In this document: positions 11,277 through 40,100 of the stretch, one piece after another
Numbering within the stretch: position 1 is the stretch's first letter
Layout of the letters: each line of letters opens with the position of its first letter
Origin: Leuctra nigra
Lineage: Eukaryota > Arthropoda > Insecta > Plecoptera > Leuctridae
NCBI GenBank assembly: GCA_934045905.1
Contig: OW203768.1
Location: 11,064,316 to 11,128,315 of the forward strand
Length of the DNA stretch: 64,000 nucleotides
Direction of reading: 5' to 3'
The notes under the pieces: generated by a model
Databases searched by the model: none
What the model saw: only the letters and a program-made list of their open reading frames with translations
What the model was told of the DNA's origin: nothing
Made by a program: the position numbers and the translations under genes

Positions 11277-14200
11277 CTATCTTCGCCACAGGCCTGAGAA
11301 AACCGTTCTTGGTCGTATGCTGTCATAGTACTGGTAGACGGGGACAGTGCAGGCTAAACAGCTAGCTGCAACAGAATGACGTGTAAAGCGTCTTAGTTTC
11401 TTGCATTTCATATCTCGATATAATATTCCTTCTTATGTCCGTTATACAACTTATTTTTATTCAATCACGCTCGTTTATTCATTCCTTGTATTACTATAAT
11501 CATTCCTCGAGTTATGAGTAATCTCATACTCCTTTACACAAATTCCATGTGTGTTTTTTATAATTTATAGTGTATTTTTTACTTGTTGATTTAAATATCT
11601 AATCTGCCCTTATCATTTTTTAATGACTGATATAAACATGTTCATCATGACTACCATGAAAAATAACAAATGAAAATGTTCTGACAGGATCAGAAAATAT
11701 CAGATTTTCAACCAATAAGACGATTTTGTAATTTTAAATACCTAATAAGAGGATTTAGATGAACATTTGTAAAATATAATGAAATGCTGGTCTTGTTAAC
11801 ATTGATAAATTTCAACTTTATCACGACGTGTAAATTTTTCAAACCATAAGACGATTTAAAAAAAATACGGTTTTGTTCAAAATCTGCATGCTACTGCAAA
11901 GCGTATAGGCACAATTTCAGCTCAATCGGAGGAACAGTGTGATTTCTATCATGCCAATATCATAAAAAACATACAAAGAAGCCGCATTCTCAATTCTGAT
12001 TTGGATGCAACAGAAAATGCGTACAATGAGATGAATCCACGTACCATATATAACGATTGACATTACTATCTCTGAGATGCCAGTTGTACCAGAATAATCA
12101 TTTGCCCCGCGCTCTCGCTTGTCAGTCAGAAAAACGACGCCGGCTGCAAACAGCAGTAGACAGTGGACAGTGGACCACGGCACATGGTAGATCATGAAGC
12201 CCAGAACACATGGGCGAGACTTGGCAGCATCTTCTGATCCCTAGTGAACACATCGCTTGTCAGTCATTAGAGCGACGCCGGCTGCAAACAGCAGTAGACA
12301 GTGGACAGTGGACCACGGCACATGGTAGATCATGAAGCCCAGAACACATGGGCGAGACTTGGCAGCATCTTCTGATCCCTAGTGAACACATCGCTTGTCA
12401 GTCATTAGAGCGACGCCGGCTGCAAACAGCAGTAGACAGTGGACAGTGGACCACGGCACATGGTAGATCATGAAGCCCAGAACACATGGGCGAGACTTGG
12501 CAGCATCTTCTGATCCCTAGTGAACACATCGCTTGTCAGTCATTAGAGCGACGCCGGCTGCGAACAGCAGTAGACAGTGGACAGTGGACCACGGCACATG
12601 GTAGATCATGAAGCCCAGAACACATGGGCGAGACTTCGCAGCATCTTCTGATCCCTAGTGAACACATCGCTTGTCAGTCATTAGAGCGACGCCGGCTGCA
12701 AACAGCAGTAGACAGTGGACAGTGGACCACGGCACATGGTAGATCATGAAGCCCAGAACACATGGGCGAGACTTCGCAGCATCTTCTGATCCCTAGTGAA
12801 CACATCGCTTGTCAGTCATTAGAGCAACGCCGGCTGCAAACAGCGGTAGACAGTGGACAGTGGACCACGGCACATGGTAGATCATGAAGCCCAGAACACA
12901 TGGGCGAGACTTCGCAGCATCTTCTGATCCCTAGTGAACACATCGCTTGTCAGTCATTAGAGCGACGCCGGCTGCAAACAGCAGTAGACAGTGGACAGTG
13001 GACCACGGCACATGGTAGATCATGAAGCCCAGAACACATGGGCGAGACTTGGCAGCATCTTCTGATCCCTAGTGAACACATCGCTTGTCAGTCATTAGAG
13101 CGACGCCGGCTGCAAACAGCAGTAGACAGTGGACAGTGGACCACGGCACATGGTAGATCATGAAGCCCAGAACACATGGGCGAGACTTCGCAGCATCTTC
13201 TGATCCCTAGTGAACACATCGCTTGTCAGTCATTAGAGCGACGCCGGCTGCAAACAGCAGTAGACAGTGGACAGTGGACCACGGCACATGGTAGATCATG
13301 AAGCCCAGAACACATGGGCGAGACTTCGCAGCATCTTCTGATCCCTAGTGAACACATCGCTTGTCAGTCATTAGAGCGACGCCGGCTGCAAACAGCAGTA
13401 GACAGTGGACAGTGGACCACGGCACATGGTAGATCATGAAGCCCAGAACACATGGGCGAGACTTGGCAGCATCTTCTAATCCCTAGTGAACACATCGCTT
13501 GTCAGTCATTAGAGCAACGCCGGCTGCAAACAGCAGTAGACAGTGGACAGTGGACCACGGCACATGGTAGATCATGAAGCCCAGAACACATGGGCGAGAC
13601 TTGGCAGCATCTTCTGATCCCTAGTGAACACATCGCTTGTCAGTCATTAGAGCAACGCCGGCTGCAAACAGCAGTAGACAGTGGATAGTGGACCACGGCA
13701 CATGGTAGATCATGAAGCCCAGAACACATGGGCGAGACTTAGCAGCATCTTCTGATCCCTAGTGAACACATCGCTTGTCAGTCATTAGAGCGACGCCGGC
13801 TGCAAACAGCAGTAGACAGTGGACAGTGGACCACGGCACATGGTAGATCATGAAGCCCAGAACACATGGGCGAGACTTGGCAGCATCTTCTGATCCCTAG
13901 TGAACACATCGCGAGTCAGTCATTAGAGCAACGCCGGCTGCAAACAGCAGTAGACAGTGGACAGTGGACCACGGCACATGGTAGATCATGAAGCCCAGAA
14001 CACATGGGCGAGACTTGGCAGCATCTTCTAATCCCTAGTGAACACATCGCTTGTCAGTCATTAGAGCAACGCCGGCTGCAAACAGCAGTAGACAGTGGAC
14101 AGTGGACCACGGCACATGGTAGATCATGAAGCCCAGAACACATGGGCGAGACTTGGCAGCATCTTCTGATCCCTAGTGAACACATCGCTTGTCAGTCATT

Positions 14201-17200
14201 AGAGCGACGCCGGCTGCGAACAGCAGTAGACAGTGGACAGTGGACCACGGCACATGGTAGATCATGAAGCCCAGAACACATGGGCGAGACTTGGCAGCAT
14301 TTTCTGATCCCTAGTGAACACATCGCTTGTCAGTCATTAGAGCAACGCCGGCTGCAAACAGCGGTAGACAGTGGACAGTGGACCACGGCACATGGTAGAT
14401 CATGAAGCCCAGAACACATGGGCGAGACTTTGCAGCATCTTCTGATCCCTAGTGAACACATCGCTTGTCAGTCATTAGAGCGACGCCGGCTGCAAACAGC
14501 AGTAGACAGTGGACAGTGGACCACGGCACATGGTAGATCATGAAGCCCAGAACACATGGGCGAGACTTGGCAGCATCTTCTGATCCCTAGTGAACACATC
14601 GCGAGTCAGTCATTAGAGCAACGCCGGCTGCAAACAGCAGTAGACAGTGGACAGTGGACCACGGCACATGGTAGATCATGAAGCCCAGAACACATGGGCG
14701 AGACTTGGCAGCATCTTCTAATCCCTAGTGAACACATCGCTTGTCAGTCATTAGAGCAACGCCGGCTGCAAACAGCAGTAGACAGTGGACAGTGGACCAC
14801 GGCACATGGTAGATCATGAAGCCCAGAACACATGGGCGAGACTTGGCAGCATCTTCTGATCCCTAGTGAACACATCGCTTGTCAGTCATTAGAGCGACGC
14901 CGGCTGCAAACAGCAGTAGACAGTGGACAGTGGACCACGGCACATGGTAGATCATGAAGCCCAGAACACATGGGCGAGACTTCGCAGCATCTTCTGATCC
15001 CTAGTGAACACATCGCTTGTCAGTCATTAGAGCGACGCCGGCTGCAAACAGCAGTAGACAGTGGACAGTGGACCACGGCACATGGTAGATCATGAAGCCC
15101 AGAACACATGGGCGAGACTTCGCAGCATCTTCTGATCCCTAGTGAACACATCGCTTGTCAGTCATTAGAGCAACGCCGGCTGCAAACAGCAGTAGACAGT
15201 GGACAGTGGACCACGGCACATGGTAGATCATGAAGCCCAGAACACATAGGCGAGACTTCGCAGCATCTTCTGATCCCTAGTGAACACATCGCTTGTCAGT
15301 CATTAGAGCGACGCCGGCTGCAAACAGCAGTAGACAGTGGACAGTGGACCACGGCACATGGTAGATCATGAAGCCCAGAACACATAGGCGAGACTTCGCA
15401 GCATCTTCTGATCCCTAGTGAACACATCGCTTGTCAGTCATTAGAGCAACGCCGGCTGCAAACAGCAGTAGACAGTGGACAGTGGACCACGGCACATGGT
15501 AGATCATGAAGCCCAGAACACATGGGCGAGACTTCGCAGCATCTTCTGATCCCTAGTGAACACATCGCTTGTCAGTCATTAGAGCGACGCCGGCTGCAAA
15601 CAGCAGTAGACAGTGGACAGTGGACCACGGCACATGGTAGATCATGAAGCCCAGAACACATGGGCGAGACTTGGCAGCATCTTCTGATCCCTAGTGAACA
15701 CATCGCTTGTCAGTCATTAGAGCAACGCCGGCTGCAAACAGCAGTAGACAGTAGACAGTGGACCACGGCACATGGTAGATCATGAAGCCCAGAACACATG
15801 GGCGAGACTTGGCAGCATCTTCTGATCCCTAGTGAACACATCGCTTGTCAGTCATTAGAGCAACGCCGGCTGCAAACAGCAGAAGACAGTGGACAGTGGA
15901 CCACGGCACATGGAAGATCATGAAGCCCAGAACACATGGGCGAGACTTCGCAGCATCTTCTGATCCCTAGTGAACACATCGCGAGTCAGTCATTAGAGCA
16001 ACGCCGGCTGCAAACAGCAGTAGACAGTGGACAGTGGACCACGGCACATGGTAGATCATGAAGCCCAGAACACATGGGCGAGACTTCGCAGCATCTTCTG
16101 ATCCCTAGTGAACACATCGCTTGTCAGTCATTAGAGCGACGCCGGCTGCAAACAGCAGTAGACAGTGGACAGTGGACCACGGCACATGGTAGATCATGAA
16201 GCCCAGAACACATGGGCGAGACTTGGCAGCATCTTCTGATCCCTAGTGAACACATCGCTTGTCAGTCATTAGAGCAACGCCGGCTGCAAACAGCAGTAGA
16301 CAGTGGACAGTGGACCACGGCACATGGTAGATCATGAAGCCCAGAACACATGGGCGAGACTTGGCAGCATCTTCTGATCCCTAGTGAACACATCGCGAGT
16401 CAGTCATTAGAGCAACGCCGGCTGCAAACAGCAGTAGACAGTGGACAGTGGACCACGGCACATGGTAGATCATGAAGCCCAGAACACATGGGCGAGACTT
16501 GGCAGCATCTTCTGATCCCTAGTGAACACATCGCTTGTCAATCATTAGAGCGACGCCGGCTGCAAACAGCAGTAGACAGTGGACAGTGGACCACGGCACA
16601 TGGTAGATCATGAAGCCCAGAACACATGGGCGAGACTTCGCAGCATCTTCTGATCCCTAGTGAACACATCGCTTGTCAGTCATTAGAGCAACGCCGGCTG
16701 CGAACAGCAGTAGACAGTGGACAGTGGACCACGGCACATGGTAGATCATGAAGCCCAGAACACATGGGCGAGACTTGGCAGCATCTTCTGATCCCTAGTG
16801 AACACATCGCTTGTCAGTCATTAGAGCGACGCCGGCTGCAAACAGCAGTAGACAGTGGACAGTGGACCACGGCACATGGTAGATCATGAAGCCCAGAACA
16901 CATGGGCGAGACTTGGCAGCATCTTCTGATCCCTAGTGAACACATCGCTTGTCAGTCATTAGAGCGACGCCGGCTGCAAACAGCAGTAGACAGTGGACAG
17001 TGGACCACGGCACATGGTAGATCATGAAGCCCAGAACACATGGGCGAGACTTGGCAGCATCTTCTGATCCCTAGTGAACACATCGCTTGTCAGTCATTAG
17101 AGCGACGCCGGCTGCAAACAGCAGTAGACAGTGGACAGTGGACCACGGCACATGGTAGATCATGAAGCCCAGAACACATGGGCGAGACTTCGCAGCATCT

Positions 17201-20200
17201 TCTGATCCCTAGTGAACACATCGCTTGTCAGTCATTAGAGCGACGCCGGCTGCAAACAGCAGTAGACAGTGGACAGTGGACCACGGCACATGGTAGATCA
17301 TGAAGCCAGAACACATGGGCGAGACTTCGCAGCATCTTCTGATCCCTAGTGAACACATCGCTTGTCAGTCATTAGAGCGACGCCGGCTGCAAACAGCAGT
17401 AGACAGTGGACAGTGGACCACGGCACATGGTAGATCATGAAGCCCAGAACACATGGGCGAGACTTGGCAGCATCTTCTAATCCCTAGTGAACACATCGCT
17501 TGTCAGTCATTAGAGCAACGCCGGCTGCAAACAGCAGTAGACAGTGGACAGTGGACCACGGCACATGGTAGATCATGAAGCCCAGAACACATGGGCGAGA
17601 CTTGGCAGCATCTTCTGATCCCTAGTGAACACATCGCTTGTCAGTCATTAGAGCAACGCCGGCTGCAAACAGCAGTAGACAGTGGATAGTGGACCACGGC
17701 ACATGGTAGATCATGAAGCCCAGAACACATGGGCGAGACTTGGCAGCATCTTCTGATCCCTAGTGAACACATCGCTTGTCAGTCATTAGAGCGACGCCGG
17801 CTGCAAACAGCAGTAGACAGTGGACAGTGGACCACGGCACATGGTAGATCATGAAGCCCAGAACACATGGGCGAGACTTGGCAGCATCTTCTGATCCCTA
17901 GTGAACACATCGCGAGTCAGTCATTAGAGCAACGCCGGCTGCAAACAGCAGTAGACAGTGGACAGTGGACCACGGCACATGGTAGATCATGAAGCCCAGA
18001 ACACATGGGCGAGACTTGGCAGCATCTTCTAATCCCTAGTGAACACATCGCTTGTCAGTCATTAGAGCAACGCCGGCTGCAAACAGCAGTAGACAGTGGA
18101 CAGTGGACCACGGCACATGGTAGATCATGAAGCCCAGAACACATGGGCGAGACTTGGCAGCATCTTCTGATCCCTAGTGAACACATCGCTTGTCAGTCAT
18201 TAGAGCGACGCCGGCTGCGAACAGCAGTAGACAGTGGACAGTGGACCACGGCACATGGTAGATCATGAAGCCCAGAACACATGGGCGAGACTTGGCAGCA
18301 TCTTCTGATCCCTAGTGAACACATCGCTTGTCAGTCATTAGAGCAACGCCGGCTGCAAACAGCAGTAGACAGTGGACAGTGGACCACGGCACATGGTAGA
18401 TTATGAAGCCCAGAACACATGGGCGAGACTTGGCAGCATCTTCTGATCCCTAGTGAACACATCGCGAGTCAGTCATTAGAGCAACGCCGGCTGCAAACAG
18501 CAGAAGACAGTGGACAGTGGACCACGGCACATGGTAGATCATGAAGCCCAGAACACATGGGCGAGACTTGGCAGCATCTTCTGATCCCTAGTGAACACAT
18601 CGCTTGTCAGTCATTAGAGCAACGCCGGCTGCGAACAGCAGTAGACAGTGGACAGTGGACCACGGCACATGGTAGATCATGAAGCCCAGAACACATGGGC
18701 GAGACTTTGCAGCATCTTCTGATCCCTAGTGAACACATCGCTTGTCAGTCATTAGAGCGACGCCGGCTGCAAACAGCAGTAGACAGTGGACAGTGGACCA
18801 CGGCACATGGTAGATCATGAAGCCCAGAACACATGGGCGAGACTTGGCAGCATCTTCTGATCCCTAGTGAACACATCGCGAGTCAGTCATTAGAGCAACG
18901 CCGGCTGCAAACAGCAGTAGACAGTGGACAGTGGACCACGGCACATGGTAGATCATGAAGCCCAGAACACATGGGCGAGACTTGGCAGCATCTTCTAATC
19001 CCTAGTGAACACATCGCTTGTCAGTCATTAGAGCAACGCCGGCTGCAAACAGCAGTAGACAGTGGACAGTGGACCACGGCACATGGTAGATCATGAAGCC
19101 CAGAACACATGGGCGAGACTTGGCAGCATCTTCTGATCCCTAGTGAACACATCGCTTGTCAGTCATTAGAGCGACGCCGGCTGCGAACAGCAGTAGACAG
19201 TGGACAGTGGACCACGGCACATGGTAGATCATGAAGCCCAGAACACATGGGCGAGACTTGGCAGCATCTTCTGATCCCTAGTGAACACATCGCTTGTCAG
19301 TCATTAGAGCAACGCCGGCTGCGAACAGCAGTAGACAGTGGACAGTGGACCACGGCACATGGTAGATCATGAAGCCCAGAACACATGGGCGAGACTTTGC
19401 AGCATCTTCTGATCCCTAGTGAACACATCGCTTGTCAGTCATTAGAGCGACGCCGGCTGCAAACAGCAGTAGACAGTGGACAGTGGACCACGGCACATGG
19501 TAGATCATGAAGCCCAGAACACATGGGCGAGACTTGGCAGCATCTTCTGATCCCTAGTGAACACATCGCTTGTCAGTCATTAGAGCGACGCCGGCTGCAA
19601 ACAGCAGTAGACAGTGGACAGTGGACCACGGCACATGGTAGATCATGAAGCCCAGAACACATGGGCGAGACTTCGCAGCATCTTCTGATCCCTAGTGAAC
19701 ACATCGCTTGTCAGTCATTAGAGCAACGCCGGCTGCAAACAGCAGTAGACAGTGGACAGTGGACCACGGCACATGGTAGATCATGAAGCCCAGAACACAT
19801 AGGCGAGACTTGGCAGCATCTTCTGATCCCTAGTGAACACATCGCTTGTCAGTCATTAGAGCGACGCCGGCTGCAAACAGCAGTAGACAGTGGACAGTGG
19901 ACCACGGCACATGGTAGATCATGAAGCCCAGAACACATGGGCGAGACTTGGCAGCATCTTCTGATCCCTAGTGAACACATCGCTTGTCAGTCATTAGAGC
20001 GACGCCGGCTGCAAACAGCAGTAGACAGTGGACAGTGGACCACGGCACATGGTAGATCATGAAGCCCAGAACACATGGGCGAGACTTCGCAGCATCTTCT
20101 GATCCCTAGTGAACACATCGCTTGTCAGTCATTAGAGCGACGCCGGCTGCAAACAGCAGTAGACAGTGGACAGTGGACCACGGCACATGGTAGATCATGA

Positions 20201-23200
20201 AGCCCAGAACACATGGGCGAGACTTGGCAGCATCTTCTGATCCCTAGTGAACACATCGCTTGTCAGTCATTAGAGCAACGCCGGCTGCAAACAGCAGTAG
20301 ACAGTGGACAGTGGACCACGGCACATGGTAGATCATGAAGCCCAGAACACATGGGCGAGACTTGGCAGCATCTTCTGATCCCTAGTGAACACATCGCTTG
20401 TCAGTCATTAGAGCAACGCCGGCTGCAAACAGCAGTAGACAGTGGACAGTGGACCACGGCACATGGTAGATCATGAAGCCCAGAACACATGGGCGAGACT
20501 TGGCAGCATCTTCTGATCCCTAGTGAACACATCGCTTGTCAGTCATTAGAGCGACGCCGGCTGCAAACAGCAGTAGACAGTGGACAGTGGACCACGGCAC
20601 ATGGTAGATCATGAAGCCCAGAACACATGGGCGAGACTTGGCAGCATCTTCTGATCCCTAGTGAACACATCGCTTGTCAGTCATTAGAGCGACGCCGGCT
20701 GCAAACAGCAGTAGACAGTGGACAGTGGACCACGGCACATGGTAGATCATGAAGCCCAGAACACATGGGCGAGACTTCGCAGCATCTTCTGATCCCTAGT
20801 GAACACATCGCTTGTCAGTCATTAGAGCGACGCCGGCTGCAAACAGCAGTAGACAGTGGACAGTGGACCACGGCACATGGTAGATCATGAAGCCCAGAAC
20901 ACATGGGCGAGACTTCGCAGCATCTTCTGATCCCTAGTGAACACATCGCTTGTCAGTCATTAGAGCGACGCCGGCTGCAAACAGCAGTAGACAGTGGACA
21001 GTGGACCACGGCACATGGTAGATCATGAAGCCCAGAACACATGGGCGAGACTTGGCAGCATCTTATAATCCCTAGTGAACACATCGCTTGTCAGTCATTA
21101 GAGCAACGCCGGCTGCAAACAGCAGTAGACAGTGGACAGTGGACCACGGCACATGGTAGATCATGAAGCCCAGAACACATGGGCGAGACTTGGCAGCATC
21201 TTCTGATCCCTAGTGAACACATCGCTTGTCAGTCATTAGAGCAACGCCGGCTGCAAACAGCAGTAGACAGTGGATAGTGGACCACGGCACATGGTAGATC
21301 ATGAAGCCCAGAACACATGGGCGAGACTTGGCAGCATCTTCTGATCCCTAGTGAACACATCGCTTGTCAGTCATTAGAGCGACGCCGGCTGCAAACAGCA
21401 GTAGACAGTGGACAGTGGACCACGGCACATGGTAGATCATGAAGCCCAGAACACATGGGCGAGACTTGGCAGCATCTTCTGATCCCTAGTGAACACATCG
21501 CGAGTCAGTCATTAGAGCAACGCCGGCTGCAAACAGCAGTAGACAGTGGACAGTGGACCACGGCACATGGTAGATCATGAAGCCCAGAACACATGGGCGA
21601 GACTTGGCAGCATCTTCTAATCCCTAGTGAACACATCGCTTGTCAGTCATTAGAGCAACGCCGGCTGCAAACAGCAGTAGACAGTGGACAGTGGACCACG
21701 GCACATGGTAGATCATGAAGCCCAGAACACATGGGCGAGACTTGGCAGCATCTTCTGATCCCTAGTGAACACATCGCTTGTCAGTCATTAGAGCGACGCC
21801 GGCTGCGAACAGCAGTAGACAGTGGACAGTGGACCACGGCACATGGTAGATCATGAAGCCCAGAACACATGGGCGAGACTTGGCAGCATTTTCTGATCCC
21901 TAGTGAACACATCGCTTGTCAGTCATTAGAGCAACGCCGGCTGCAAACAGCGGTAGACAGTGGACAGTGGACCACGGCACATGGTAGATCATGAAGCCCA
22001 GAACACATGGGCGAGACTTGGCAGCATCTTCTGATCCCTAGTGAACACATCGCTTGTCAGTCATTAGAGCAACGCCGGCTGCAAACAGCAGTAGACAGTG
22101 GACAGTGGACCACGGCACATGGTAGATTATGAAGCCCAGAACACATGGGCGAGACTTGGCAGCATCTTCTGATCCCTAGTGAACACATCGCGAGTCAGTC
22201 ATTAGAGCAACGCCGGCTGCAAACAGCAGAAGACAGTGGACAGTGGACCACGGCACATGGTAGATCATGAAGCCCAGAACACATGGGCGAGACTTGGCAG
22301 CATCTTCTGATCCCTAGTGAACACATCGCTTGTCAGTCATTAGAGCAACGCCGGCTGCGAACAGCAGTAGACAGTGGACAGTGGACCACGGCACATGGTA
22401 GATCATGAAGCCCAGAACACATGGGCGAGACTTTGCAGCATCTTCTGATCCCTAGTGAACACATCGCTTGTCAGTCATTAGAGCGACGCCGGCTGCAAAC
22501 AGCAGTAGACAGTGGACAGTGGACCACGGCACATGGTAGATCATGAAGCCCAGAACACATGGGCGAGACTTGGCAGCATCTTCTGATCCCTAGTGAACAC
22601 ATCGCGAGTCAGTCATTAGAGCAACGCCGGCTGCAAACAGCAGTAGACAGTGGACAGTGGACCACGGCACATGGTAGATCATGAAGCCCTGAACACATGG
22701 GCGAGACTTGGCAGCATCTTCTAATCCCTAGTGAACACATCGCTTGTCAGTCATTAGAGCAACGCCGGCTGCAAACAGCAGTAGACAGTGGACAGTGGAC
22801 CACGGCACATGGTAGATCATGAAGCCCAGAACACATGGGCGAGACTTGGCAGCATCTTCTGATCCCTAGTGAACACATCGCTTGTCAGTCATTAGAGCGA
22901 CGCCGGCTGCGAACAGCAGTAGACAGTGGACAGTGGACCACGGCACATGGTAGATCATGAAGCCCAGAACACATGGGCGAGACTTGGCAGCATCTTCTGA
23001 TCCCTAGTGAACACATCGCTTGTCAGTCATTAGAGCAACGCCGGCTGCGAACAGCAGTAGACAGTGGACAGTGGACCACGGCACATGGTAGATCATGAAG
23101 CCCAGAACACATGGGCGAGACTTTGCAGCATCTTCTGATCCCTAGTGAACACATCGCTTGTCAGTCATTAGAGCGACGCCGGCTGCAAACAGCAGTAGAC

Positions 23201-26200
23201 AGTGGACAGTGGACCACGGCACATGGTAGATCATGAAGCCCAGAACACATGGGCGAGACTTGGCAGCATCTTCTGATCCCTAGTGAACACATCGCTTGTC
23301 AGTCATTAGAGCGACGCCGGCTGCAAACAGCAGTAGACAGTGGACAGTGGACCACGGCACATGGTAGATCATGAAGCCCAGAACACATGGGCGAGACTTC
23401 GCAGCATCTTCTGATCCCTAGTGAACACATCGCTTGTCAGTCATTAGAGCGACGCCGGCTGCAAACAGCAGTAGACAGTGGACAGTGGACCACGGCACAT
23501 GGTAGATCATGAAGCCCAGAACACATGGGCGAGACTTGGCAGCATCTTCTGATCCCTAGTGAACACATCGCTTGTCAGTCATTAGAGCGACGCCGGCTGC
23601 AAACAGCAGTAGACAGTGGACAGTGGACCACGGCACATGGTAGATCATGAAGCCCAGAACACATGGGCGAGACTTGGCAGCATCTTCTGATCCCTAGTGA
23701 ACACATCGCTTGTCAGTCATTAGAGCGACGCCGGCTGCAAACAGCAGTAGACAGTGGACAGTGGACCACGGCACATGGTAGATCATGAAGCCCAGAACAC
23801 ATGGGCGAGACTTCGCAGCATCTTCTGATCCCTAGTGAACACATCGCTTGTCAGTCATTAGAGCGACGCCGGCTGCAAACAGCAGTAGACAGTGGACAGT
23901 GGACCACGGCACATGGTAGATCATGAAGCCCAGAACACATGGGCGAGACTTCGCAGCATCTTCTGATCCCTAGTGAACACATCGCTTGTCAGTCATTAGA
24001 GCGACGCCGGCTGCAAACAGCAGTAGACAGTGGACAGTGGACCACGGCACATGGTAGATCATGAAGCCCAGAACACATGGGCGAGACTTGGCAGCATCTT
24101 CTAATCCCTAGTGAACACATCGCTTGTCAGTCATTAGAGCAACGCCGGCTGCAAACAGCAGTAGACAGTGGACAGTGGACCACGGCACATGGTAGATCAT
24201 GAAGCCCAGAACACATGGGCGAGACTTGGCAGCATCTTCTGATCCCTAGTGAACACATCGCTTGTCAGTCATTAGAGCAACGCCGGCTGCAAACAGCAGT
24301 AGACAGTGGATAGTGGACCACGGCACATGGTAGATCATGAAGCCCAGAACACATGGGCGAGACTTGGCAGCATCTTCTGATCCCTAGTGAACACATCGCT
24401 TGTCAGTCATTAGAGCGACGCCGGCTGCAAACAGCAGTAGACAGTGGACAGTGGACCACGGCACATGGTAGATCATGAAGCCCAGAACACATGGGCGAGA
24501 CTTGGCAGCATCTTCTGATCCCTAGTGAACACATCGCGAGTCAGTCATTAGAGCAACGCCGGCTGCAAACAGCAGTAGACAGTGGACAGTGGACCACGGC
24601 ACATGGTAGATCATGAAGCCCAGAACACATGGGCGAGACTTGGCAGCATCTTCTAATCCCTAGTGAACACATCGCTTGTCAGTCATTAGAGCAACGCCGG
24701 CTGCAAACAGCAGTAGACAGTGGACAGTGGACCACGGCACATGGTAGATCATGAAGCCCAGAACACATGGGCGAGACTTGGCAGCATCTTCTGATCCCTA
24801 GTGAACACATCGCTTGTCAGTCATTAGAGCGACGCCGGCTGCGAACAGCAGTAGACAGTGGACAGTGGACCACGGCACATGGTAGATCATGAAGCCCAGA
24901 ACACATGGGCGAGACTTGGCAGCATTTTCTGATCCCTAGTGAACACATCGCTTGTCAGTCATTAGAGCAACGCCGGCTGCAAACAGCGGTAGACAGTGGA
25001 CAGTGGACCACGGCACATGGTAGATCATGAAGCCCAGAACACATGGGCGAGACTTGGCAGCATCTTCTGATCCCTAGTGAACACATCGCTTGTCAGTCAT
25101 TAGAGCAACGCCGGCTGCAAACAGCAGTAGACAGTGGACAGTGGACCACGGCACATGGTAGATTATGAAGCCCAGAACACATGGGCGAGACTTGGCAGCA
25201 TCTTCTGATCCCTAGTGAACACATCGCGAGTCAGTCATTAGAGCAACGCCGGCTGCAAACAGCAGAAGACAGTGGACAGTGGACCACGGCACATGGTAGA
25301 TCATGAAGCCCAGAACACATGGGCGAGACTTGGCAGCATCTTCTGATCCCTAGTTAACACATCGCTTGTCAGTCATTAGAGCAACGCCGGCTGCGAACAG
25401 CAGTAGAGAGTGGACAGTGGACCACGGCACATGGTAGATCATGAAGCCCAGAACACATGGGCGAGACTTTGCAGCATCTTCTGATCCCTAGTGAACACAT
25501 CGCTTGTCAGTCATTAGAGCGACGCCGGCTGCAAACAGCAGTAGACAGTGGACAGTGGACCACGGCACATGGTAGATCATGAAGCCCAGAACACATGGGC
25601 GAGACTTGGCAGCATCTTCTGATCCCTAGTGAACACATCGCGAGTCAGTCATTAGAGCAACGCCGGCTGCAAACAGCAGTAGACAGTGGACAGTGGACCA
25701 CGGCACATGGTAGATCATGAAGCCCAGAACACATGGGCGAGACTTGGCAGCATCTTCTGATCCCTAGTGAACACATCGCTTGTCAGTCATTAGAGCGACG
25801 CCGGCTGCGAACAGCAGTAGACAGTGGACAGTGGACCACGGCACATGGTAGATCATGAAGCCCAGAACACATGGGCGAGACTTGGCAGCATCTTCTGATC
25901 CCTAGTGAACACATCGCTTGTCAGTCATTAGAGCAACGCCGGCTGCGAACAGCAGTAGACAGTGGACAGTGGACCACGGCACATGGTAGATCATGAAGCC
26001 CAGAACACATGGGCGAGACTTTGCAGCATCTTCTGATCCCTAGTGAACACATCGCTTGTCAGTCATTAGAGCGACGCCGGCTGCAAACAGCAGTAGACAG
26101 TGGACAGTGGACCACGGCACATGGTAGATCATGAAGCCCAGAACACATGGGCGAGACTTGGCAGCATCTTCTGATCCCTAGTGAACACATCGCTTGTCAG

Positions 26201-29200
26201 TCATTAGAGCGACGCCGGCTGCAAACAGCAGTAGACAGTGGACAGTGGACCACGGCACATGGTAGATCATGAAGCCCAGAACACATGGGCGAGACTTCGC
26301 AGCATCTTCTGATCCCTAGTGAACACATCGCTTGTCAGTCATTAGAGCAACGCCGGCTGCAAACAGCAGTAGACAGTGGACAGTGGACCACGGCACATGG
26401 TAGATCATGAAGCCCAGAACACATAGGCGAGACTTGGCAGCATCTTCTGATCCCTAGTGAACACATCGCTTGTCAGTCATTAGAGCGACGCCGGCTGCAA
26501 ACAGCAGTAGACAGTGGACAGTGGACCACGGCACATGGTAGATCATGAAGCCCAGAACACATGGGCGAGACTTGGCAGCATCTTCTGATCCCTAGTGAAC
26601 ACATCGCTTGTCAGTCATTAGAGCGACGCCGGCTGCAAACAGCAGTAGACAGTGGACAGTGGACCACGGCACATGGTAGATCATGAAGCCCAGAACACAT
26701 GGGCGAGACTTCGCAGCATCTTCTGATCCCTAGTGAACACATCGCTTGTCAGTCATTAGAGCGACGCCGGCTGCAAACAGCAGTAGACAGTGGACAGTGG
26801 ACCACGGCACATGGTAGATCATGAAGCCCAGAACACATGGGCGAGACTTGGCAGCATCTTCTGATCCCTAGTGAACACATCGCTTGTCAGTCATTAGAGC
26901 AACGCCGGCTGCAAACAGCAGTAGACAGTGGACAGTGGACCACGGCACATGGTAGATCATGAAGCCCAGAACACATGGGCGAGACTTGGCAGCATCTTCT
27001 GATCCCTAGTGAACACATCGCTTGTCAGTCATTAGAGCAACGCCGGCTGCAAACAGCAGTAGACAGTGGACAGTGGACCACGGCACATGGTAGATCATGA
27101 AGCCCAGAACACATGGGCGAGACTTGGCAGCATCTTCTGATCCCTAGTGAACACATCGCTTGTCAGTCATTAGAGCGACGCCGGCTGCAAACAGCAGTAG
27201 ACAGTGGACAGTGGACCACGGCACATGGTAGATCATGAAGCCCAGAACACATGGGCGAGACTTGGCAGCATCTTCTGATCCCTAGTGAACACATCGCTTG
27301 TCAGTCATTAGAGCGACGCCGGCTGCAAACAGCAGTAGACAGTGGACAGTGGACCACGGCACATGGTAGATCATGAAGCCCAGAACACATGGGCGAGACT
27401 TGGCAGCATCTTCTGATCCCTAGTGACCACATCGCTTGTCAGTCATTAGAGCAACGCCGGCTGCAAACAGCAGTAGACAGTGGACAGTGGACCACGGCAC
27501 ATGGTAGATCATGAAGCCCAGAACACATGGGCGAGACTTGGCAGCATCTTCTGATCCCTAGTGAACACATCGCTTGTCAGTCATTAGAGCGACGCCGGCT
27601 GCAAACAGCAGTAGACAGTGGACAGTGGACCACGGCACATGGTAGATCATGAAGCCCAGAACACATGGGCGAGACTTGGCAGCATCTTCTGATCCCTAGT
27701 GAACACATCGCTTGTCAGTCATTAGAGCAACGCCGGCTGCAAACAGCAGTAGACAGTGGACAGTGGACCACGGCACATGGTAGATCATGAAGCCCAGAAC
27801 ACATGGGCGAGACTTGGCAGCATCTTCAGATCCCTGCAGTGAACAACATCGTCATTCGCTTTTAAAGCACCGATACGCGCAACATTCCAGCCGAACACAA
27901 TTCACTCAATAAAAGATAGCTATCTACAAACGATATGAAAATTTCAATAATTGACCCCAGGGGCAATTTCTGGCGAGTTGGAAGGAGGAAGAGGGAATGG
28001 TTAAATCCCTCCTCAATTCAATTCCCCTCCCTATTATTTTATCTACTTACATCAATATAAAACTTTCTCTCAAATAAGAAATGTTCAAATTGCATATAGA
28101 TACGCAACAAATTCATTCCTGAAATTCATTCTTTTCCATAGCTATTCAAAACCTGCGAAATACGGGGCTGCCTCTCCCCTATAGTCTTTAAGCAATCGTA
28201 TTTCCCGTCATTGTTATTTCAAATTGTATCCCCCTCTGGCCCTTCTTTTAAATTTAATTCCTACATGCCTGGGAAGTTAGGGCTTCTGATACAAGTGTTT
28301 TCTTACTAGATACAGAATGTATTCCTGAGCAATTGTTAGAAATATTATCGTGTAATACATACGGGCCCGTTGACAGCTGCAATCAAGATGGCGGCTGCTA
28401 CAGCCAGACCGATGCATCCCAAGCATAGAAGAAGAGCCATCCACGTGGCAGAAATGTCTAATGGCGAGAAAAATAACTATCAGTATTGGAATAACTCAAA
28501 ATGCAATTCAAAGATAACACTCGCATTTGCTGATTTGGGGATTGCTACATTGTATGTTATGATGACGGCCGGGTCCGAAAGACTAATAATAGCACTGGAG
28601 CAGGGACTCCAGAAACGAACCGGTATATTTTGGAATCGGAACCGGAACACATTAATTAATATTTTCGGTGGAACCTGAACCTCTAGTACCACAACAACCG
28701 CCAGAGTGCAATCGTGTTCCTTGTATTCACGAATACTTACGCGAGTACGTGTCTCCTACCAAGTCAGCTGCCACCAACCCCCACAAGATCGCGTATACAA
28801 CGGAGAGGATCTGTTCAAAACGAGCATAAAATGTTAGCAGTCAATAACTCTTGAAAATTCTTGACAGATTGGTATTAAAATTGGCTGAAAAGACTGTAAT
28901 ATTAGTCCGAATGATCATGCCAAGCAAAATTATACGTTAATCGGTTAAATGGTTCCATTTTCAATTTTCTACAAATACATGATTATACTCGTACAATACC
29001 TGCGGGACAGAGATAAGTGTGTGTGTGTGGAACATTTCAGATCGATTGGTTGTAACAGAGGCAAAGAACCCTTACTTCTTAACTGTAGAACAAAGTTGAT
29101 TATGGTGACACTCATGTCCTCCATTGACCCACACTTACCAGTAGCCAATGCCTATGATGGTGACACCAGATTGACACACACTTACCAGTAGAACACTGCC

Positions 29201-29645
29201 TATGATGGTGACACCAGATTGACACACACTTACCAGTAGAACAATGCCTATGATGGTGACACAAAATTGACACAACTTACCAGTAGAACAATGCCTATAA
29301 TAGTGACACCAGATTGGCACAACTTACCAGTAGAACAATGCCTATAATAGTGACACCAGATTGGCACAACTTACCAGTAAAACAATGCCTATGATGGTGA
29401 CACAAAATTGACACACACTTCTTACCAGGAGAACAATGCCTAGGCTATGATGGTGACACCAAGTTGACACACACTTACCAGTAGAACAATGCCTATGATG
29501 GTGACACCAGATTGACACACACTTACCAGTAGAAAAACAATGCCTATAATAGTGACACCAGATTGACACAACTTACCAGTAGAACACTGCCAATGATGGT
29601 GACACCAGTCTTCAATTGACACGCACCCCAGCAACATGTAGGCAT
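11277..29645 (-). CDS. T4: four-helix membrane protein with two exon-edge arrays, 172 aa if the distal exon 4 is used
   Basis: Minus-strand exons: E1 29577-29645 (ATG at 29645), E2 28741-28810, E3 28363-28457, E4 12045-12240, E5 11277-11365 (stop TAG at 11277). They total 519 nt and are in frame, with the family phases 0, 1, 0, 1. The N-terminus is MPTCCWGACQLKTGV, then helix 1. E3 gives helix 2 (LGCIGLAVAAAILIAA), E4 gives helix 3 (WSTVHCLLLFAAGV) and the start of helix 4. E5 gives PVYQYYDSIRP and ends GLWRR. The nearest relative is T5, which has the same N-terminus and GLWRR/ALWRR end. Intron 3 (12241-28362) consists almost wholly of 113 extra copies of the E4 acceptor region. Using any copy other than the last (12240) gives an early in-frame TAG. 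Intron 1 carries extra copies of the E1 donor region. Whether the full-length product is made depends on splice choice. Confidence 0.75.
12115..27833 (-). repeat. 138-bp satellite made from the T4 intron 3/exon 4 boundary (114 copies)
   Basis: Read on the minus strand, each unit is the last 12 bases of intron 3 (TGTGTTCACTAG) plus the first 126 bases of exon 4 (GGATCAGAAGATG... to ...GACAAGCGA). The copy at 12115-12240 continues into the intact exon. From 12241 to 27833 there are 15593 bp = 113 x 138 - 1; the missing base is a C near 17307. The rightmost copy has a longer, better acceptor (GTTGTTCACTGCAG). Units differ only at a few recurrent sites (AGCGACG/AGCAACG, CGCTTGTC/CGCGAGTC, CTTGG/CTTCG/CTTTG, CTGATCC/CTAATCC, GGACAG/GGATAG), so the array is highly homogenised. 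Translated in the gene frame, each unit carries helix 3 and ends RCVH then TAG. Confidence 0.97.
29132..29624 (-). repeat. Tandem copies of the T4 exon 1 donor edge (about 10 copies, 47-53 bp)
   Basis: On the minus strand each unit contains GGTGTCACCATCATAGGC, then ATTGTTCTACTG and a GTAAGT- or GTAAG-type donor, then TGTGTGTCAA. Donors lie near 29134, 29181, 29229, 29276, 29323, 29370, 29421, 29474, 29522 and 29572; the last belongs to the true exon 1, which alone has the ATG and Cys cluster. Variants include ATAATAGGC for ATCATAGGC and a 4-base insertion (copy at 29421). The overlapping 61-109 codon ORFs here are by-products. Confidence 0.92.
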
Positions 29646-30249: not shown

Positions 30250-32933
30250 TTATCTCCTCCAAAGGGCTGAAAAAACCATCGTTGGTCGCATGCTGTCATA
30301 GTACTGGAAGACAGGCACAGTGCAGCCTAAGCAGCTAGCTGCAACAAAAGGTGTGACACATTTTAGTTTATCAGTGTTTTAGTTACTCGTTAATTCATGA
30401 ATATTCCTTCTTATGTCCAATAAAAAACCTTATTATTATTATTAGGTCGTTTATCAATGAGACGTAATTTTTTTAAATTTTAGATAATCAGAGGATTTGG
30501 ATGAAAATTTGTAATGTAAATGTATAATGAAATGTTGGTGGAAAATTTTAACGTCATCGGGACGTTTTAAATTTTCCACCCATGAGACGATTTAAAAAAA
30601 CAATATGAGGATTTTGTTGAAAATCTATACTACAAAGCGTATCGGTACGCAAAATTTCAGCTCTATCGGAGGAACGGTGTGATTTTCATCGCGAGAAACC
30701 AAAAACACTGTGAGGAGACGCTCGCTCGATTCTGATTTTGATGCAATGGAAACTATACGGAAAACATGCCTTCATCACTTACCATATATTACGATTGACA
30801 TTATTATCGCCCAGGTGCCAGTTATACCAGAATCATCGGGTGTCCCTTTAGCTCTCGAGTCAGTCAATAAAGCTACACCAACTATCAACAGCAGTATGCA
30901 GTGGGCAGTGGCCCAGAACACGTGGTAGATCATAAAGACCAGAAGACATCCGCGAGACTGATCAGCATCTATGGACCCCTGTCCCTAGAAACGACAGGCA
31001 ATGCTAGAATCTCGAATTTATTGGCATTTTAAATTAGTGTTTTCGTAATTATTGCTTTTTAGAAATACGAGAGCTGTTTAGAGTAATGAAGTATATCGTT
31101 CAAATTGCACATGGTGATAAAGTAACTATTTCTCTATACAACGGTATAACAAGTCAAAGGGTGTATGTCACATGGATGGATGGGCAAGCATTGACCGGCC
31201 TAATCTGCCGAACGTCTGTGTTATTGTCAAACAGCATTGGCTGATATTGCCCGAATATTATTGGAGACAATATTGGGTCATGGTGGTGCAATTTGCAGAG
31301 AGGAAAATTGTGTTTCATTTGGTAGTGAGGTGTTACTTTGATAGGATTTTCATATGTTCAGTCTGATTGTATATTAGTAGCACTTTTTAATTTTTGCTTC
31401 GTGCTTTGTCAATTAAGCTCCGGTTATTCAACAAAACCGCGCAAAACTATGAAATTTCCGATACGATTAGAGACCAAACCCGTTAACCAATTGATATGAA
31501 GTTTTAATCATGATTAGATAAAAGACAAACTAAGGGTTATCACTTATCACTTGGGGCATTTTTTAAATTAAATTTCATACGGCAGCCAGCGAGAAAAGAA
31601 AATAAAAAAAAATTTCACCAATAATCAACTAATTACCAATTAACAAAGCAAAAAATTAAAAATGTACCAAGTAATAACCCTAATTTTGTCTTTCATCTAA
31701 TCATGATTAAAATTTAAAATTATTTCGTCAACCCATTTTGCTTCCAATTGTATCAAAAAAAAAAAGTGCCTGCAACACCTAGCAAAGTTATGCCCAAAGT
31801 TGCAATACTTTCGGTACATCTCTCTTAATATTGTGTAATACACACAGGCCCGGTAGCAGCTGCAATCAAGATGGCGGCTGCAACAGCCAGCCCGATGCAT
31901 CCCACAGATATAAGATGAGGCAGATAAGAAGAAGCAGTTATTCCTAAAGGCGAGAAAAATGACTACACTATAACTCAAAATTCAATTCAAAGAAAACAAT
32001 CACTTTTACTGATTTGAAAATTGCTACTTGAATGTTATGACGATTCTAGGTCAGAAAAGTACACTATTTCAAACCCTCAAACATCCCAGTCTCTCTGGCT
32101 CAACGGCAGCCCTAAGCGTCAGTCCGCCTTAGCTTATATACTGCCGTGTTATGGATAAGAAACGTATCGAACAGATATTTGAGAAAAAAATATTCCGAGA
32201 TATCGGCACAAACGCGTTTTAGTATGACGCAACTTTATTTTTGAACTTTGAGAAATTTATAAAAGTATTTTAGATACACGTTGTATTACGATTAACAGTG
32301 TGTTTTAATTCAGTTTTACAGGTCGATACATTGCTTGGTACAGTTGCTTGGTGCTTGGGTTGATACAGTGCTGTTTATCACTTTTCTTGACTGCACAAAT
32401 AGCTATTACGTTGTTATAGCTTTAACACTGGCTGATACGTTTTTTTTCTTTACAGTTTCTCAAATTTCCTTGTAGGTACATTCACAAATCAAATGTTGAA
32501 TTACGTGCTTTTTGGGAGATTCTAGCCCACTGCATTTGAAAGAGCAAAAATTAGTCTTGAAAACCCCGAAAATGTGCAAAAATTGCTTTTACGTTTCTTA
32601 TGCGCAACACGGCAGTATAGGACTCTTGTAGAGGCTGTCAACAGTCTGTCAACAGAGGCTGTCAATAGCCGACAGGGTTTAATAATGTTATCCTTGCTTT
32701 CTCGAATACTTACGAGTGTTCGGCATTCCTACCAAGTCAGCTGCCTCCAACCCCCAGAAGATCGCGTACGGCACGGATAGGATCTGTGTTCAAAACGATC
32801 ATCAAAATGTTAGCATCTTACCAATTACCAATAGAAGTAGCAAGTACCAATAAATACTTATTACCAGTAGAACAATGCCTATTATGGTGACACAAGTCTT
32901 CACTTGACACGCACCGAAGCAACAAGTAGGCAT
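30250..32933 (-). CDS. T5: four-helix membrane protein, five exons, 173 aa
   Basis: Minus-strand exons: E1 32865-32933 (ATG at 32933), E2 32714-32783, E3 31846-31943, E4 30783-30978, E5 30250-30338 (stop TAA at 30250). They total 522 nt and are in frame, with phases 0, 1, 0, 1. The E3 donor is GTGTGT and the E1 donor is GTAATAAG, both weaker than usual. The N-terminus MPTCCFGACQVKTCV precedes helix 1. E3 holds helix 2 (CIGLAVAAAILIAAA), E4 holds helix 3 (FWATAHCILLLIVGV) and most of helix 4. E5 reads PVFQYYDSMRP and ends ALWRR. It is the sister of T4: the same exon lengths except E3, and homologous intron 4 (30450-30690 against 11640-11950). T5 has single-copy exon edges, so it shows the state before the T4 expansions. 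Confidence 0.84.
31335..31754. mobile_element. TIR element in T5 intron 3 (mate at 49298-49715)
   Basis: The inner ends GATACGATTAGAGACCAAAC and its inverted partner at 31735-31754 bracket AT-rich DNA with the inverted block AGACAAACTAAGGGTTATCAC. The flank 31335-31459 has an inverted homologue beside the copy in T7 intron 2, so the mobile unit is larger than the palindrome. Confidence 0.65.
32141..32615. mobile_element. TIR element (MITE) with TATA target duplication, T5 intron 2
   Basis: Ends CTGCCGTGTTATGGATAAGA and TTCTTATGCGCAACACGGCAG are inverted copies, flanked on both sides by TATA (32137-32140 and 32616-32619). The length is 475 bp. No transposase is seen. Confidence 0.75.
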
Positions 32934-37100: not shown

Positions 37101-40100
37101 CATTGTACCCAATCTTACAATGTTTCAGCCAAATCCTCCCATTGGTTAAAATTTAAAAAAATCTTTTATGTCATTTTTTAAATTTAAACTTGAACCGTAT
37201 GACTGATCAACTTAAAACTTTGCATGGTCATTGGGACTAACATTATCTGCATTTTTGACAATTTTCAGACTAATCTATGTTTAAATCCAAAAGTTATTGA
37301 CGTTTTACGGACATTTTGCGTGTTGGCTGTCAAATATCTCGAAAATGTTGATCACGGCTACTTCGACTCTTTATAGTTCCAAGGTAGTTAGAGTAGAAAC
37401 TTTCAAACGTATGAAACTGATATTCAACCATTCAACAGATCGATCTAATATTGTGTAAGTACACACACTTTTATCATATGAGTGGTCCCAGGTCTATTTT
37501 TTTTAAGAGATCCTGTGATTTTTGAATATTAACGAGGAACAGTTCAATCAGAAAGGTTCAAAATGTTCAAGCTTTGCATGGTTATTGGGACTAATGTTTT
37601 AGGACAATTTTGAGATTTTTATACTTGAGTCTGACGAAATTCAAGAATTATTGGCTTTTAATGATATTTTCGATAGACATAATTTCGGTTCGAGGTGTTG
37701 CGCCTGTCCGTGCTCGCTCATCAACGCGTTACACAGAGCGTTTTCCTAGTGAATAATTTTATTCGTTGGTTTCCCTTCCCTACCCTAAACTACCCTCGAC
37801 TACCCTTATTTCTACCCTCGTCTACCTTTACGTCATAAATCGAAAACGGATATACCGATTGCAATTAAATTATGTAATTATGTAGGAATAATGAATTAAA
37901 GACGACATTATTTTCGACCACCATTGTTAAAACCGGAAGTGACGTCATATATCGAAAACGGCTGTACCGATTGCAACTGAATAATGTAATTCCGTAGGAC
38001 TTATAATGAATTCAGGACAACATTATTTCTGGCCGCCATTTTTAAAACCGGAAGTGACGTCATTTATCGAAAACAGATGTACCGATTGCAACTAAATAAT
38101 GTAATTATGTTGCCCTTATATTTATGAATTCAATAGGGAATTCTCCTCAGTTTTTATTAAATTTTTAATAGATCCTCAGCTTCTAAAGAAATACAACAGT
38201 ATTTTTTAAATATTTTTAGATCTACTTGTTATCGAGTTATGTTAGTTCAAACTTTTGCTGTCTGAATGGAGATTTGAAACGACCATGCGCCATCTTTCCC
38301 AGCTGTGACGTCAGAACCTAGATAGCCAAGTGTCCTGCATGCAGTTCTCATTCGGTTCTAATGAATTTGATGCATGGATCTGATGGATCTAATGCATTTG
38401 AAGTGAACACAAACTTGATAAACACAGGGAAATTCCTCGTTTAGCCCTATCTTGGATGGTCTCACTGCCTATCATCTAGGTTCTGACGTCATCCAATCAC
38501 AGATCGCTGGGAGGCATTCAGAGCCCGCCAAATAAAATCATACTTTCAAGCCTCAATAACTATTGAAATACATTTATTTCAGAGACCTGTTATATACTGT
38601 TGGTCTTCCTGTAATATCTAGTATTGTATTTAATTAATTAAAAGTAAATTAAAATTTGAGGAGAATTCCCTATTGTTGACATTATTTTCGGCAGCAATTT
38701 CAAAACCGAAAGTGACGTCATAATATCGAAAAAGGCTGAACTGATTACAACCAAATTATGCAATTGTGTAGGACTTATAATTATGAATTCAAGACGACAT
38801 TTTTTTCGGCCGTTATTTCAAAACCGGAAGGGACGTCATATATCGAAAACAGCTGTACCAATTGTAACCAAATTATGCAATTAAGTAGGACTTACAATTA
38901 TGAATTCAAGACGACATTATTTTTTACCGCAATTTCAAAACCGGAAGTGACGTCATATATCGAAAACGGCTGCAGATATTGCAGCTTATTTATGCAATTA
39001 TGTTGCACTTATAATAATGAAATCAAGGCGGAAGTATTATCGGGCGCCATTTTTTAAACCGGAAGTGACGTCAGATATCGAAATGGCTGGACCGATTGTA
39101 ACGAAACTTAGGCAATTCTTCTTGGATAATCATTTTAAGCTTATACCAAATGCAACTTTTCTTAGCAACCAAATCGGTTAAGGCGTATTTTTTTAAAGTA
39201 ATCTAGTGGAGCGGTCGCTCCACGCCAGCCAAGTCGTACGGCGCGCGCACACTCTCATTTAAAAAGGCTGGAGCAACCCACTTTTACTGTAAGCATCAAA
39301 GTGGCATTTTCGGCCTACTGGATCTTAAAATTGGGAAATGTCACATTGTTGCGAAATATCTTAATTTCGAGCTATGGCCCACCCTACAACATATACCAAA
39401 TTTGGGAACAATAGGTTACGCCCTTTGCGCGCTAGAGGGCCGTGAAAACAGTGTTTTAGGGCGGTTTTCATAATAATAATAATAATAATCTCAGTAGTAG
39501 TCTCCTGGAATTCAAATCCGGTAACAAGGCCACAGCCTAAACGGCTGAACCGATTGATCTCACATTTTTACCACGTGTGCACTTTTGGCGTCTGATTTAA
39601 CCTTCACCCCATGAATTTTTTGTGCCGCCATTTTGAAACCGGAAGTGACGTCATATCTCAACAACGGCTAAACCGATTGGAGCGAAAACGATTCAGACGG
39701 TGAACTTTATGCATTATCAGTAGCAAAAGACTAAACATTTTGTTAACGAAACCGGAAATGACGTCATGAAATTTGAAATACATCGATTGGCATTTCGGCA
39801 ACAAAGGTTGATCCGATTATTTTGATATTTATGTAACGTATGCACTTCTGATATATCATTTGACTTGTTACAAAACCAACCGGAAGCCGCCATTGTTAAA
39901 CCGGAAGTGACATCATATCTTAATATTGGCTAAATAGATTTGAACGAAACCAGCGCCACACAATTTAGACGGGCAACTTTATGTTTTATCATCAGTAATA
40001 TTTGCAGTTTCTTATAGCAAAACCGGAAATGACGTTACACATTTTAAAAATCTCACAAATTTACATTTTGATACAATACATACTATTTGAGACAGCTTAT

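Follow-up and report, generated by a model that had tools for sequence, protein, structure and literature searches.

Exon 4 of the Leuctra nigra gene T4 carries a tandem array of 114 units, in which the splice acceptor and the first 126 nt of the exon are repeated head-to-tail. The array is of a known kind, the mirage of amphioxus, in a new animal branch and at a new scale. We consider it likely that it is a giant mirage, that is, a boundary array that has grown to satellite size and whose surplus is removed together with intron 3. The window (the whole stretch of DNA analyzed, 64,000 nucleotides) contains only the letters A, C, G and T and hence is gap-free. It lies on contig C7 of an assembly of 536 Mb in 144 contigs. 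The T4 family forms a minus-strand tandem cluster in the window and beyond, and the features used below are as follows.

11277..11365, minus: T4 exon 5 with the stop codon
12045..12240, minus: complete T4 exon 4, made of the last array copy plus 70 nt; donor GTACGT
27833 down to 12104, minus: 138-bp array of 114 units, from a copy-by-copy walk
28363..28457, minus: T4 exon 3; donor GTATGT
28741..28810, minus: T4 exon 2
29123..29608, minus: second T4 array, 47 bp x ~10, of the exon 1 3′ end and its GTAAGT donor, running into intron 1
29577..29645, minus: T4 exon 1 (ATG); donor GTAAGT; 3′ end overlapped by copy 1 of the 47-bp array
30250..32933, minus: T5 paralogue, five exons; exon 4 (30783-30978) single and unexpanded

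A satellite-scale array derived from a splice-acceptor/exon boundary had been proposed in the first-pass annotation, and it was borne out by TRF (period 138, 114 copies, 98% matches, span 12115-27851) and by the copy walk. With 114 copies at 98%, chance is no issue. The number of extra copies, given as 113, was reproduced exactly (27833 - 12240 = 15593 = 113 x 138 - 1), where 112 units are exactly 138 bp and copy 77 is one base short (137 bp). The two ends were also as described. Copy 1 at 27833 has the acceptor CTGCAG, and only the last unit (1/114), which begins at 12240, runs into unique exon sequence and a donor. The acceptor of copies 2-114 is CACTAG (once AACTAG). As for the make-up of the unit, the first 126 nt of exon 4 were confirmed, whereas the intron part is not an exact piece of intron 3: the intron-derived unit tail TGTGTTCACTAG and the intron 3 end TTGTTCACTGCAG are separated by small indels, and CACTAG stands against CTGCAG.

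The 114 copies fall into 33 types in an irregular order, and the mean pairwise difference of 113 copies (last excluded) is 1.66%. Identical ordered blocks were detected (copies 5-15 = 53-63; copies 19-27 = 41-49), and the longest identical run comprises 11 copies, as compared with at most 6 in 200 shuffles. Since the copy types are not in random order, the array probably grew by the copying of many-unit blocks. In the single assembly covered, such blocks would be at most an indirect sign of length instability between haplotypes or in soma. The last copy deviates at unit positions 107, 109, 111 and 112, at which 112/112 full-length inner copies agree, and a T at unit position 6 occurs only in copy 1. 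Thus, the inner copies evolve in concert and the edge copies are excluded. Furthermore, the repeats cross the intron-exon boundary, and the one complete, authentic exon lies at a margin of the cluster, as it does in the other arrays read. At unit positions 121-122, TC was found in 13/112 full-length copies and also in T5, and the others have AA; this TC represents either old variation or conversion from T5.

In a genome-wide search for the 138-bp unit, the unit junction gave 113 matches in the 536-Mb assembly with at most two mismatches, on one strand only. About 100 junction places were among the matches listed, and every one of them was within the T4 array. Since the number of matches equals that of the junctions in the T4 array, the repeat is confined to a single locus, and a dispersed or centromeric satellite was thereby ruled out.

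When T4 was joined through the last copy, five exons with GT-AG borders and an open frame of 172 aa were obtained, in agreement with the initial reading of the gene as intact. The protein possesses four hydrophobic stretches. Exon 3 was joined to each acceptor and read to the exon 4 donor, and the frame was open in 1/114 cases, that of the last copy. Joining of exon 3 to copy 1 gives a truncated protein of 123 aa. A stop occurs at the unit junction itself (CAC TAG), all six frames of the 138-bp unit are closed, and no frame supports a new exon within the array. A single long coding repeat was likewise ruled out, because no frame holds 150 aa of open sequence. The variants among the inner copies comprise 7 synonymous and 14 non-synonymous changes (expected 25.9% synonymous, p=0.46); thus, there is no sign of coding constraint on the inner copies. 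With an approximate donor-frequency matrix, the top GT of the unit scores -3.24 and the eight T4/T5 donors score -1.11 to 6.54, so that the weakest true donor is only 2 bits above the top GT of the unit. The last copy has a TAG acceptor, which looks weaker. By frame and splice-site logic, the 113 surplus copies are most likely spliced out along with intron 3.

The word CTAAT is present at unit positions 109-113 of the inner copies, 26 nt before the AG, and is absent in the last copy and in T5. In a 132-bp cyclase unit (listed below), CTAAT likewise stands about 25 nt before the AG. It is a branch-point-like word and may be a chance match.

The acceptors might instead serve as splicing decoys: many of them would be used, and truncated or stop-bearing transcripts would lower or tune T4 output, as in IFI6. 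In IFI6 (6-16), splice donors are repeated within a minisatellite (Turri et al. 1995, as cited in PMC4526556), whose units act as donor sites and feed several mRNA forms (PMC4526556). The T4 array shares with IFI6 a splice site carried by a tandem repeat inside a gene, and an AG and an in-frame stop are kept at every T4 junction, as decoys would predict. However, IFI6 concerns the donor side and alternative donors, whereas the main T4 array lies on the acceptor side and repeats whole exon-start pieces. The T4 unit is without a good donor by the approximate matrix, and arrays of like build in unrelated genes, with 2 to 168 copies, look mutational and not like tuning. In amphioxus, Adh3 data and globin RT-PCR suggest that mirages leave regular splicing undisturbed (PMC3087553). 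Decoys are therefore an unlikely explanation.

The first-pass annotation had regarded such satellites as unusual. Within this genome they are not, since 16 further boundary arrays were found. The total is 17, with 12 on the acceptor side and 5 on the donor side, and with 2 to 168 copies. Those outside T4 are as follows.

Alkaline phosphatase, acceptor side: 100 bp, 168 matches, ~16.8 kb
Alkaline phosphatase, acceptor side: 92 bp x 2.7
Alkaline phosphatase, acceptor side: 158 bp x 10, contig C10
Alkaline phosphatase, acceptor side: 148 bp x 2.9, contig C10
Alkaline phosphatase, acceptor side: 137 bp x 2.0, contig C9
Adenylate cyclase, acceptor side: 132 bp x 4.4
Cyclase, acceptor side: 124 bp x 4, contig C7
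Cyclase, acceptor side: 120 bp, at least 17 copies, contig C3
Four-helix paralogue of T4, exon 4, acceptor side: 68 bp x 40
Another gene, family not assigned, acceptor side: 116 bp x 39
Cuticle protein, acceptor side: 155 bp, six partial rows, contig C2 (HMM rows only)
Alkaline phosphatase, donor side: 170 bp x 7.9, contig C10
Alkaline phosphatase, donor side: 148 bp x 1.9, contig C10
Adenylate cyclase, donor side: 102 bp x 9
Cuticle protein, donor side: 98 bp, a complete row then 13 partial, contig C2 (HMM rows only)

PF00245 matches of array-bearing exons reached 9.4e-10 and 3.7e-12. The exon of the 124-bp array matched solved adenylate cyclases at 4.9e-17, and that of the 132-bp array matched AC_N at 0.017, below the cut-off. 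In the 155-bp cuticle array, the complete row lies 930 bp (6 x 155) past the partial rows, and the intervening stretch is not among the matches listed.

In the 324 kb around the window, 27 arrays with a period of at least 40 were detected. By our own reading, 7 of the 11 arrays with at least four copies sit on a splice boundary, and these seven hold 39,777 of the 47,892 array bases. The chance of 7/11 is 5e-8, 8e-5 or 0.002 at 4, 12 or 20% per array, rates that are assumptions, as the exons of the region are not annotated. One of the 11, at 104509-105388 to the right of the window, repeats the donor-side array of adenylate cyclase at a displaced position, and its flank resembles the 3′ flank of the original array in inverted orientation. 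To the left of the window (-110681..-108680), a 135 bp x 14.9 array might touch an exon. Repeats of about 115-120 bp with GACGTCATATATCGAAAACGG (37830-38107, 38678-39117 and, left of the window, ~-27892..-27239) form a family dispersed in this genome and apparently do not derive from exons. A reverse transcriptase fragment (RVT_1, 1e-18) lies on the minus strand at 61903-62535.

In the adenylate cyclase 132-bp array, 4/4 non-terminal copies are frame-shifted (an insertion of two bases is common to three of them, and the first lacks ten bases) and the terminal copy is in frame. Across eight arrays, 8/319 inner copies have an exon part that is broken by a stop or frame shift, 4/8 of them from adenylate cyclase. 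In the remaining seven arrays, 4/315 inner copies are broken there. Since inner copies elsewhere are so seldom broken, the case for selection on the terminal copy only comes mainly from the cyclase array, and the inner copies of the other arrays are simply young.

T5 shows the unexpanded state, with a single exon 4, as first noted. Neither T4 nor T5 gave a Pfam match above the cut-offs, and no T4 relative was found in the protein database at E<=10 among 517 candidates. The comparison of T4 with T5 gave dN 0.21 and dS 0.37 (exon 4 only, dN 0.28 and dS 0.41), and the ratio of ~0.57 indicates only weak constraint on T4. In the second T4 array, the 47-bp copies are 87% alike and the complete exon is the first copy; the 47-bp units are closer to T5 exon 1 (TAGGCATTG) than to T4 exon 1 (TTGGCAGTG). 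The ratio and the presence of two arrays in one gene are what would be expected if T4 were dying and the array were tolerated since the gene no longer matters. We nevertheless regard this as unlikely, as all five exons of T4 read open and keep their splice sites, and other array-bearing exons are also open. Among ten acceptor arrays examined, the last copy was open to a good donor in eight; that of the 92-bp alkaline phosphatase array (ALP-92) stayed open as far as the sequence was read, and that of the 68-bp four-helix array (T-68), reread by hand, gave 184 nt, open, then GTGAGT. An assembly artefact, in which collapsed or looped reads produced the array, is very improbable: identical block repeats could stem from mis-joined reads and one globin mirage was mis-assembled in the amphioxus draft (PMC3087553), but the 33 copy types are in irregular order, and boundary arrays of many lengths, every one built from a different unit, are spread over several contigs.

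We surveyed four gene families, and an array was found at 11/318 exon loci (9/318 by HMM rows only). Alkaline phosphatase gave 85 rows and 68 loci. Seven of these loci have an array, and 2/7 come from TRF and are absent in the HMM rows. PF00211 (cyclases) gave 82 rows and 63 loci, 2 with an array (150/215 candidates scored), PF00379 (cuticle RR domain) 149 rows and 130 loci, 2 with an array (150/168 candidates scored), and CCT (PF00118) 57 rows and 57 loci, none with an array. Tandem match rows were merged by hand into loci, and the counts are floors, since short partial copies miss the HMM threshold. The families were hand-picked, two of them for arrays already seen there. A contrast between housekeeping and other genes appeared for alkaline phosphatase against CCT (7/68 vs 0/57, p=0.015). 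With cyclases added, it became 9/131 vs 0/57 (p=0.06), and cuticle proteins gave 2/130; therefore, no housekeeping difference is claimed.

In amphioxus, mirages are described for Adh3 and the globins BflGb6 and BflGb9 (PMC3087553) and are also named for TnC and PGBD5 (PMC3902484). The BflGb6 mirage consists of the intron 3′ end and the exon 5′ part, with 6 copies in one haplotype and 3 in the other; globin mirage units are 150-160 bp, and a donor-side globin mirage exists too (PMC3087553). The present arrays are like these in that the units cross an acceptor or donor boundary (PMC3087553, PMC3902484), the authentic exon stands at the cluster edge, and inner copies are homogenised whereas edge copies are not. 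They differ in host, an arthropod and not a cephalochordate, in that several families are affected, and in size: two of them have 114 and 168 copies over 15.7 and ~16.8 kb, as compared with the 6 and 3 copies of the BflGb6 haplotypes. An amphioxus origin of the genome itself was considered and rejected on the strength of its 149 matches to PF00379, a domain that marks arthropods; the 14 controls of that search are prokaryotes and do not bear on this specificity. In the literature covered, which was partial and included few subscription papers, no arthropod mirage and none of such size was found. Intron gain by tandem duplication is also known (review PMC3443670; Drosophila PMC2891723). The seed event would be the same: in potato, the intron-exon piece that was duplicated brought along a branch site, a pyrimidine tract and the 3′ splice site. 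However, intron gain involves one or few copies and a new intron, whereas T4 has copies on the scale of hundreds and shows no evident new exon or intron.

For the giant mirage, the seed would be a tandem duplication of small size that spans a splice boundary and involves short microhomology, and growth would occur via unequal exchange and duplication of multi-unit blocks. Short shared words were seen by eye at some seeds: ACTCTTC (116-bp array), ATTCC (158-bp) and CGA (T4). One alkaline phosphatase exon (profile ~37-97) is expanded in three paralogues that differ in unit and side (158 and 148 bp at the acceptor, 170 bp at the donor), and two paralogues of the four-helix family have an expanded exon 4 (138 and 68 bp). 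This recurrence and the shared words suggest repeated duplications of a microhomology type. Intron-side copies would always leave one copy attached to the remainder of the exon, the last in acceptor arrays and the first in donor arrays, and growth would therefore be barely visible to selection. Copies with a single splice site would not be defined as exons, and for this reason the array would be excised with intron 3. The array itself would need no function. More tentatively, an arthropod lineage may possess, independently of amphioxus, a genome-wide mutational process that copies splice boundaries again and again; mirages would then occupy a few percent of the exons of certain gene families, and some would have grown to satellites of more than 15 kb.

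In the literature covered, mirages have so far been discussed as a cephalochordate peculiarity and as an intron-gain model; somatic instability is cited for them and intron gain proposed (PMC3087553). Here, one genome shows every stage, from seed duplication through small array to satellite (2 to 168 copies). The cause of splice-boundary copying, the choice of the right acceptor among 114 and the birth of introns from arrays thus become testable. There is also a practical warning: at mirage exons, neither gene prediction nor assembly from short reads will succeed. If genome-wide boundary copying is true, it would provide a lasting source of new introns and of intron expansion.
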